From the NCBI GenBank assembly GCA_023473795.1, contig JAMCYS010000049.1:1-43435 (forward strand): a stretch of 43,435 bases of DNA, read 5' to 3'. Under the pieces are notes generated by a model. That model was not told the DNA's origin. It worked only from the letters and a program-made list of their open reading frames with translations, and did no database searches. Positions 31,090 through 32,762 of the stretch are shown here, piece after piece. The DNA is from Chloroflexota bacterium (GTDB lineage: Bacteria > Chloroflexota > UBA6077 > FW602-bin22 > JAMCYS01). Each line of letters opens with the position of its first letter. Within the stretch, counting starts at the first letter, position 1. A program made the translations under genes and the position numbers.

Positions 31090-31341
31090 TCGGGAGCTAA
31101 AGAAGTTGTATACAGGCCTACGCCGGTCAAGTGAAGTCTCCGTGCGTCCCGGGGAGCATAGGGGCTCGCCGCCTACAATCTCACTGCCTTCACGAAGGCC
31201 GATACGACCAGCGTGCCGGGGGCGAAGCCCAGATTCGCTGGCACTAACTGACGGAGTTCCTCGGGCGCGTCGGCGGCGCTATAAGCCTATAAGCCTTCAA
31301 CGGACCTTGACGAATACCAACGGTATCCGTAGACCCTAGCT

Positions 31342-31743
31342 TCAACCGTACCAGGGCTTGTCGTCCGGCTCGACCCGCAGGCCGTCCACGAGCTTGTTGA
31401 AGCCGCTGAATAGATCGACGACCGCCATCAGTTCGAGCACCGCCTCGTCGTCCAGGCCCAGCTTCCGCACCGCGGAAGTGTGGACCTCCATTCAGTAGCC
31501 GCAGGCGTTCACCGCCGAGACCGCTACGGCGATGATCTCCTTGGTCAGGCGGTCTAGCTTGCCGGTCCTCACCATGACGGCCTTGACCTTGTTCCAGTTG
31601 GCCTCCAGGTAGTCGGGGTTGGGGGCCGTGACCTTGTAGAGGTTGGGGACGAAGTCGATGCCGAGGGTGGCTTTGATGTCTGCGTAGATCTCTGCCACCT
31701 TCCCGGTCGCCTCCTCCTCGGAAACCATCTTGACGAGCGCCAT
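31342..31743 (-). CDS. AhpD-like protein, candidate selenoprotein (TGA as Sec84)
   Basis: Alkylhydroperoxidase D/carboxymuconolactone decarboxylase-like protein of 133 residues if TGA is read as selenocysteine. Residues 1-83 end in VAVSAVNACGY; the codon at 31494-31492 is TGA. The frame then continues MEVHTSAVRKLGLDDEAVLEL and runs to a TGA at 31342-31344, giving a normal family C-terminus. The family active site is C-x2-C-x3-H; here it reads Cys81-x2-Sec84-x3-His88, so the TGA replaces the reactive cysteine. Thirteen bases after the TGA a hairpin begins: arms CUUCCGC and GCGGAAG, loop GGU. The loop starts at base 21, close to the E. coli fdhF SECIS arrangement. ATG at 31743 with AAGGAGA ahead. 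Alternative: a plain nonsense mutation. Confidence 0.72.
31465..31481 (-). promoter_or_regulatory. Candidate bacterial SECIS hairpin
   Basis: In the transcript of the AhpD-like gene, 13 bases after the in-frame UGA, a perfect 7-bp stem (CUUCCGC/GCGGAAG) closes a GGU loop. Known bacterial SECIS elements place a small loop with G (often GU) roughly 16-37 bases after the UGA; here the loop begins at base 21. The hairpin also encodes conserved protein residues, so it is not free of coding constraint. Confidence 0.65.
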
Positions 31744-31839: not shown

Positions 31840-32142
31840 CTAGGGATTCTTATCCAACAGTTCGATAACGTCGGCCGCCACCTCGCCTGTGATGGCGATG
31901 CACTGCTCTAAATGTTCGGGCGAGCCCATTTCGAACTTGCGAATGAGCGCCAGCAGCAGCACGGCGGCCACCACACCCACCTTGCCGATCGCCTTGAACT
32001 GCGTCAGCCCGAAGCCATAAGCCAGCGTCGATAACGTGAATGAGCCCGCGCTCAAGCCGGTGAGGTAGAAGTAGATAGCGATTGGCAGCCCCAGCGGCGA
32101 CTCGTGCGCGACGTTGTAGATGACGACTATGTTGCCCTCCAA
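31840..32142 (-). pseudogene. Truncated NrfD/PsrC-like membrane subunit
   Basis: The first ~60 residues (HESPLGLPIAIYFYLTGLSA, then STLAYGFG and a helix to about 66) are the N-terminus of an NrfD/PsrC quinol-oxidising subunit, normally 300-400 residues. The sequence then switches to RKFEMGSPEHLEQCIAITGE...VIELLDKNP, a soluble tail of about 35 residues unlike the family and slightly less GC-rich. At least six helices are missing. The TTG start at 32142 has AGGAGGGG ahead. It follows the Fe-S gene by 32 bases. It may be a deletion fusion rather than a functional gene. Confidence 0.7.
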
Positions 32143-32174: not shown

Positions 32175-32762
32175 TCAGCGCTCGGCGCCGCCGTACGTTC
32201 GCATCGCCGCCGAGTCTGCCGCGATGTAATACACGTGAGGGTCGGTGTCCTTCTCGGGCTTCAGCACTTGGGTGGCGTTGGTGGCTAGAAGCTGCGATAT
32301 CTCGCTACGCGGGTCGTTGATGTCTCCGAAGACCAGCGCCCTCGTCGGGCAGGCGTCCACGCAGGCCGGCAGCAGCCCGGCGTCCACCCGGTGCTGACAC
32401 CACTGGCATTTCTGCACGATGTGCTTGGTCGGGCTGAGATAGCGCACGTCGTAGGGGCAGGACGCGATGCAGTATTTGCAGGCGATGCAGCGGTGCGGGT
32501 CGACCATTACGATGCCGTCTTCCCGTTGAAAAGTCGCCTGGGTGGGGCAATTCCGCACGCAGATTGGGTTGGCGCAGTTGTTACAGAAAGTGGGTAAGAA
32601 CGATTTGCTCACGTGGGGCAAGGCGCCCTTCTCCACCTGCTTGACCCAAGTGCGGTACACGCCCAGCGGCACCGCCATTTCGCTCTTGCAGGCGATGGAG
32701 CAAGCCTGGCAGCCGATGCAGCGGCGCAGGTCGACGAGCATAGACCAGCGAACCTTGCCCAA
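32175..32762 (-). CDS. Four-cluster ferredoxin-like subunit, DmsB/PsrB family
   Basis: 195 residues with sixteen cysteines in four groups (15-18-21-25, 60-63-68-72, 92-95-98-102, 119-122-134-138), enough for four [4Fe-4S] clusters. There is no signal peptide, so it is either cytoplasmic or exported with a Tat-bearing partner. The TTG start at 32762 (GGGGGTGA ahead) gives the usual beginning VRWSMLVDLRRCIGC. It heads a short operon with the truncated NrfD gene and probably the AhpD-like gene. No catalytic molybdenum subunit is present nearby. Confidence 0.88.
   Translation of the reverse strand: MGKVRWSMLVDLRRCIGCQACSIACKSEMAVPLGVYRTWVKQVEKGALPHVSKSFLPTFCNNCANPICVRNCPTQATFQREDGIVMVDPHRCIACKYCIASCPYDVRYLSPTKHIVQKCQWCQHRVDAGLLPACVDACPTRALVFGDINDPRSEISQLLATNATQVLKPEKDTDPHVYYIAADSAAMRTYGGAER

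Follow-up and report, generated by a model that had tools for sequence, protein, structure and literature searches.

How many of the in-frame TGA codons of a minus-strand AhpD-like gene from a Chloroflexota bacterium are read as selenocysteine (Sec), and where does its protein end? The window analysed here, a stretch of 43,435 nucleotides (contig JAMCYS010000049.1), contains this gene at 31743-31342. Its ATG (31743-31741) has an AGGAG motif upstream; 83 codons lead to a first TGA at 31494-31492 (codon 84) and 49 further codons to a second TGA at 31344-31342. The original prediction described a selenoprotein with the first TGA at the position of the second, reactive Cys of the AhpD family, ending at the second TGA. 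Indeed, on the minus strand the first TGA is found at exactly this place, within a C-G-Y-U motif and ahead of H88. The 49 codons are also present, but the TGA that closes them is probably a second Sec codon and not the end of the protein; the frame past 31342 reads TGA AGC TAG. The standard frame would end at residue 83, in agreement with the expectation that a routine gene call would give at most 103 residues, and an annotator allowing one Sec would still end the protein at 133. As a whole, the locus is best explained by a two-Sec AhpD/CMD thiol-selenol oxidoreductase in which each UGA would have its own hairpin, a reading to which we assign a probability of about 0.88. The features concerned are collected in Table 1.

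Table 1. Coordinates of the revised gene, its putative Sec codons and hairpins, and a recurrent neighbouring gene (window positions unless a locus is named)
Feature	Positions	Strand	Remarks
Revised AhpD-like gene, 135 residues, U84 and U134 (very probable)	31336..31743	-	stop TAG 31338-31336
Putative first Sec codon, TGA codon 84; C81-x-x-U84, H88 four residues on	31492..31494	-	TGA in 21/21; TGT (Cys) in double-Cys homologue L104
SECIS-like hairpin 1, CUUCCGC-GGU-GCGGAAG	31462..31478	-	conserved, covarying; outer helix extends window hairpin to 31454-31487
Probable second Sec codon, TGA codon 134	31342..31344	-	TGA in 21/21; GGN next in 20/21; Cys in L104
Last sense codon AGC (Ser135; Gly in other orthologues) and probable true stop TAG	31336..31341	-	stop pattern across orthologues
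SECIS-like hairpin 2, ACGGAUACC-GUU-GGUAUUCGU, beyond the coding region	31310..31330	-	97.6% of cells paired, covariation, no U tract
Protein of about 170 aa	L022:5520-6038, L023:5520-6038, L026:5561-6061, L028:5520-5900		

Codon 84 and its hairpin among orthologues

For comparison, 21 full-length copies from about seven phyla were assembled, several of them on complete chromosomes. Close orthologues came from a genome-contig scan (Anaerolineales, Thermoanaerobaculia, Thermoleophilia, Zixibacteria, Gemmatimonadota, Krumholzibacteriia, SAR202 and a Desulfosudis bin), and more were obtained by searching the phylum to which L022, a Zixibacteriota genome, belongs. They share 68-81% protein identity with the window and, with the SAR202 copy L030 left out, 65-96% DNA identity; since the orthologues are related, the counts given below are not independent. 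Two copies were left out of the 21. In one of them (L029:281-640) TGA84 is kept and other sequence takes the place of the 3' end beyond residue 116; the other, partial one (L031:5001-5359) diverges after about residue 61; both are damaged or rearranged.

Codon 84 is TGA in all 21 orthologues, always within C-x-x-TGA-x-x-V-H, and the frame is kept behind it with variation at third bases. In the 15 aligned orthologues, C81, U84, H88 and E69 are invariant. These observations bear on the competing view that a single TGC/TGT to TGA mutation, or a sequencing error, has interrupted a decaying AhpD gene. A truncated NrfD-like fragment just upstream (31840-32142) would fit such decay. On the other hand, because the same TGA occurs in every orthologue, and with the frame past it preserved at the identity stated above, a single mutation is excluded, and the probability left to a pseudogene or an error is negligible.

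The original prediction also pointed to a 7-bp hairpin with its GGU loop at base 21 after the TGA. With the T of TGA counted as base 1, this corresponds to a stem at bases 17-33 with 7 perfect pairs and the loop at bases 24-26. The hairpin folds at -21.6 kcal/mol (z = -2.8), an equally good fold being reached in 2 of 200 shuffles, and a stem of at least 7 pairs at this place follows only about 3% of the TGA triplets throughout the window. The GGU loop at bases 24-26 is retained in 20/21 orthologues, L030 being different. Within the stem, C-G is replaced by U-A in 5/20 and U-A by G-C in 1, and the loop codons for Ala91 and Val92, where these residues are encoded, are frozen as GCG GTG amid surrounding codons that vary. 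Collectively, the conserved TGA, the covarying SECIS-like hairpin, a Cys counterpart and the presence of selA, selB and tRNA-Sec in the genome support the predicted selenoprotein with a CxxU motif.

The 3' end of the gene

At codon 134, the 21 orthologues again have TGA throughout and never TAA or TAG, while the true stops downstream vary between TAG, TGA and TAA. The next codon is GGN (Gly) in 20/21, with C, T, A and G all seen at the third base, the window carrying AGC (Ser), and the true stop follows one codon on in 18/21, two in 2 and four in 1. The arrangement TGA-GGN-stop accounts for 20 of the 3,740 TGAs in the orthologue loci (0.5%). Since codon 134 is always TGA and is followed by a conserved Gly codon whose third base varies freely, it is unlikely to be the true stop. 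The tail preceding it is equally constrained: P130, W131, Y132, G133 and U134 are invariant in the 15 aligned orthologues. The 3' end of L030 reads TGA GGC TGA GGC TGA, a frame that could in principle hold U-G-U-G.

Beyond the coding region lies a second hairpin, which in the window has 9 pairs and, counted from the second TGA, a loop at bases 24-26, the same spacing as in hairpin 1. Its consensus is GAAUGC-CGUGN-GCAUUC, with the loop some 21-25 bases from the TGA and an unpaired spacer of variable length; the loop is mostly CGUNN (CGGGN in three) and does not reproduce the GGU of hairpin 1 exactly. In addition to the level of pairing given in Table 1, two-sided compensatory changes were seen in 4/6 pairs, and the covariation score was reached by 0/500 shuffles, slid versions of the hairpin also falling short. 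At least 5 pairs are formed in 20/21 orthologues and at least 6 in 18/21, the corresponding shares among random TGAs being 14% and 6%; L083 forms only 4 uninterrupted pairs. We considered an intrinsic terminator and ruled it out, since none of the 21 orthologues has a U tract behind the stem (at most 4 U in 9 bases).

Cys homologues provide a further view of both positions. Many homologues with Cys at position 84 were found. One, L104, came from an Acidobacteriota-wide search and is 58% identical. Its frame is free of internal stops, with SGCEYC around the active site and DEKPWHGCGGG directly before the stop, so that both Sec positions are occupied by Cys (TGT). It is the only double-Cys homologue found; more distant Cys homologues, at 53-59% identity, have Cys at position 84 and lack the tail altogether. 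In a maximum-likelihood tree, L104 groups with the Sec form L086 inside the Sec clade (support 88/85, which is moderate, on a long branch). Because the double-Cys form branches inside the Sec clade, the tree suggests that both Sec became Cys in one lineage.

Could the second TGA still be an ordinary stop, with a single Sec at codon 84 and hairpin 2 serving as a terminator, an mRNA-stability element or a SelB-binding regulatory element? Termination is the default meaning of UGA, and hairpin 2 stands outside the long reading frame with a loop that is not GGU. However, this proposal is at odds with the strict use of TGA at codon 134, with the conserved Gly codon and second stop behind it, with the Cys of L104 at the same position, with the absence of U tracts, and with a spacing of hairpin 2 from its UGA that equals that of hairpin 1 and of the formate dehydrogenase gene described below. 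We consider it improbable. Judging from the comparison of sequences, selection has maintained both TGAs as codons, a Cys counterpart exists for each of them, and the two hairpins are RNA structures that have been conserved. The second TGA is very probably a Sec codon with its own SECIS-like hairpin, and a two-Sec structure of the AhpD-like gene appears highly likely. TGA at codon 134, the codon next to it, the hairpin and the double-Cys homologue together lead to a window gene that very probably spans 31743-31336 and encodes 135 residues with U84 and U134, ending in KPWYG-U-S (KPWYG-U-G elsewhere).

Selenocysteine machinery, distribution and neighbourhood

The genome of the window (4.44 Mb, 170 contigs, 95.9% complete), searched family by family, contains selA (544 bits), selB (363 bits) and a tRNA-Sec (the selC product; anticodon TCA, 71.9 bits). 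Its formate dehydrogenase alpha gene (FdhA) has one internal TGA followed by a hairpin with the loop GGUCU at bases 22-26, which, together with selA, selB and tRNA-Sec, speaks for the use of Sec as well as for the local spacing of the SECIS. Of the four genes expected for this pathway, selD did not appear above the curated cut-off in this genome (96% complete, 170 contigs), the best score being 83.6 vs 125 bits for a gene adjoining selB. The selD candidates look like HypE, ThiL or other AIR-synthase relatives more than clear SelD, the best hit being at least as HypE-like. A 334-aa protein of the AIR-synthase fold that adjoins selB (L112:6676-7680, minus strand) scores between HypE, ThiL and SelD; it is possibly a divergent SelD, possibly another protein, and no SelD above the cut-off was found in the same genome. 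Among the 16 genomes searched, selB scored over the cut-off in 15, namely the window's own and 14/15 others, including that of L031, which holds only the partial copy; in the remaining genome, a selB start runs into masked Ns.

The gene is scattered among the genomes searched. It is carried by 8/133 genomes in the phylum around L022, by 2/395 around the Gemmatimonadota bin and by 1/80 around the Krumholzibacteriia bin, and the Sec form occurs in 1/396 genomes around the Thermoanaerobaculia bin and 1/399 around the Anaerolineales bin. Several carriers are bins on short contigs that may have been assigned to the wrong taxon; whole chromosomes carry the copies from Anaerolineales, Zixibacteria and Gemmatimonadota. 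Since the distribution is patchy and the sequences are so close across phyla, horizontal transfer is suggested. A scan of viral contigs with query A1 gave no relative.

A conserved operon was ruled out, as the neighbours differ between loci save for two recurring genes. The first encodes a SigZ-like ECF sigma factor and lies at most 3 kb from the gene in 7/15 loci (L016, L017, L018, L022, L023, L027 and L030); in L018 its end lies 268 bases upstream of the selenoprotein gene, with both on the same strand. Such a neighbour fits a stress response and names no substrate. The second encodes an uncharacterised protein of about 170 aa, directly downstream in four Zixibacteria loci (Table 1), for which the L022 copy gave no Pfam match. 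In one locus, a methyltransferase that looks ArsM-like by sequence is found near the gene. In the window itself, the short NrfD-like fragment just upstream (minus strand) matches only positions 10-81 of 313 and is adjoined by a 4Fe-4S protein at 32175-32762; it is a truncated membrane-oxidoreductase gene.

Family placement and the predicted role of the tail

The read-through protein belongs to the CMD/AhpD family (PF02627, E=3.6e-16, 59.3 bits vs a cut-off of 23) and exceeds the cut-off of TIGR00778 (55.1 vs 27.8 bits). It falls short of the peroxidase-related subfamily TIGR01926 (79.3 vs 81.8 bits, matching positions 2-92 of 178) and of AhpD sensu stricto, TIGR00777 (35.1 vs 191.95 bits), and no matching equivalog was found in NCBIfam release 20. 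The best solved relative is 2ouw, an AhpD core protein of 138 aa, which covers residues 1-128 (E=3.3e-28); since this match stops before the tail, the Sec tail is left without a solved counterpart.

The bare CxxU AhpD-like selenoprotein has been known since 2005, in accordance with the metagenomic Sec forms invoked in the original prediction: surveys of the Sargasso Sea and GOS data reported CxxU selenoproteins of the AhpD-like and CMD-like types (PMC1088965, PMC2398784), and a 2026 review gives them with one Sec each (PMC13188914). Those of the COG2128/YciW type (TIGR01926) resemble the window protein in having Sec as the second residue of CxxU, like U84, with the SECIS directly after it. They differ in having one Sec and no KPWYGUG tail, whereas the window protein is shorter (135 aa) and probably has a second, C-terminal Sec. 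Chloroflexota relatives L057, L059, L060, L065, L066, L067 and L069 form a separate CxxU AhpD-like group with an in-frame TGA and no Sec tail; this longer group, mostly of 180-200 aa, with roughly 190-200 aa and the motifs CRFU, CRYU or CHYU in L057, L065, L067 and L069, looks like the known COG2128-type selenoprotein. The CMD-domain CxxU selenoprotein MBW1767730.1 (PF02627; PMC13188914) shares Pfam family and CxxU with the window protein and is listed with one Sec; it may be an orthologue with an overlooked tail Sec.

Other named families are more distant. The NCBIfam families NF041537 (ArsM_AhpD_UU) and NF041238 (AhpD_rel_CFYUT) are likewise AhpD-domain selenoproteins, but fused or longer, the former being listed with three Sec (UxxG, CxxU); the window protein scores 21.5 bits against NF041537 (cut-off 510) and 31.1 bits against NF041238 (cut-off 175). 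UXX-star, KCU-star and the selenobacteriocin SGUG are bacterial families named for their Sec motifs (PMC13188914), and we take the "-star" names to mean a Sec close to the stop, whose SECIS would then have to reach past the coding region. No relation to UXX-star, KCU-star or selenobacteriocin appeared among the ten NCBIfam matches at E up to 10. In the literature covered, which was limited in scope, no mention was found of a free-standing AhpD-like protein with a second Sec at its C-terminus. Thus, the CxxU Sec of AhpD-like proteins is already known, and the new element would be the predicted second Sec on a C-terminal tail.

In Mycobacterium AhpD, the active site comprises Cys130-x-x-Cys133, His137 and Glu118, and the second Cys attacks the peroxide. 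We take E69, C81 and H88 of the window protein to be the counterparts of this Glu, Cys and His, and U84 that of the peroxide-attacking Cys. In the mechanism that we propose, each UGA would be decoded by SelB and tRNA-Sec via a separate hairpin some 10 to 17 bases downstream, and within the active site, C81-x-x-U84 ... H88, the reactive residue would be U84. U134, on a flexible tail, could exchange with the C81-U84 selenenylsulfide of its own or a neighbouring subunit and so act as a mobile relay, carrying electrons between the active site and a reductant or substrate. The two-Sec enzyme would then act as a peroxidase or reductase under stress. A relay by the tail Sec is the most economical idea, and we give it roughly even odds. 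Since an AlphaFold model computed with 15 close orthologues was too poor to use (mean pLDDT 56.6), it gives no structural backing to a tail that reaches the active site.

The main rival to this relay accepts both UGAs as Sec codons and makes the tail Sec a ligand for a metal, metalloid or electrophile, or a point of docking or exchange with a partner. The Sec residues of UXX-star and SaoC are possibly metal-binding (PMC13188914), and the SigZ-like and ArsM-like neighbours hint at a role connected with stress or metalloids. However, every element of the CxxU-His-Glu site typical of an AhpD redox enzyme is retained, the neighbourhoods are otherwise unconserved, and no metal-resistance operon was seen in them. 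We therefore regard a binding or docking tail as possible and rather less probable than the relay.

A model for the proposed relay is offered by animal thioredoxin reductase, whose flexible C-terminal Gly-Cys-Sec-Gly tail has a penultimate Sec beside another redox centre. The window protein shares the penultimate position of its predicted second Sec; on the other hand, thioredoxin reductase is an unrelated flavoprotein, and the tail Tyr-Gly-Sec-Gly of the window family has no adjacent Cys. With about an equal chance of being right or wrong, the family may represent a bacterial two-selenol enzyme in which a CxxU site is served by a penultimate tail Sec, in parallel to the animal enzyme and with the second SECIS outside the coding region.

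A terminal TGA is among the places where Sec finders and gene callers would search last, because nothing long follows it. As this family illustrates, what looks like the stop codon of a gene already recognised as encoding a selenoprotein may in fact be a further Sec codon, read with the help of a hairpin outside the coding region. The combination of TGA, one Gly codon, a true stop and a covarying hairpin provides a signature by which other families could be searched. Furthermore, the AhpD-like protein described here, being small, would lend itself to studies of two-selenium chemistry and of a relay by a Sec tail.
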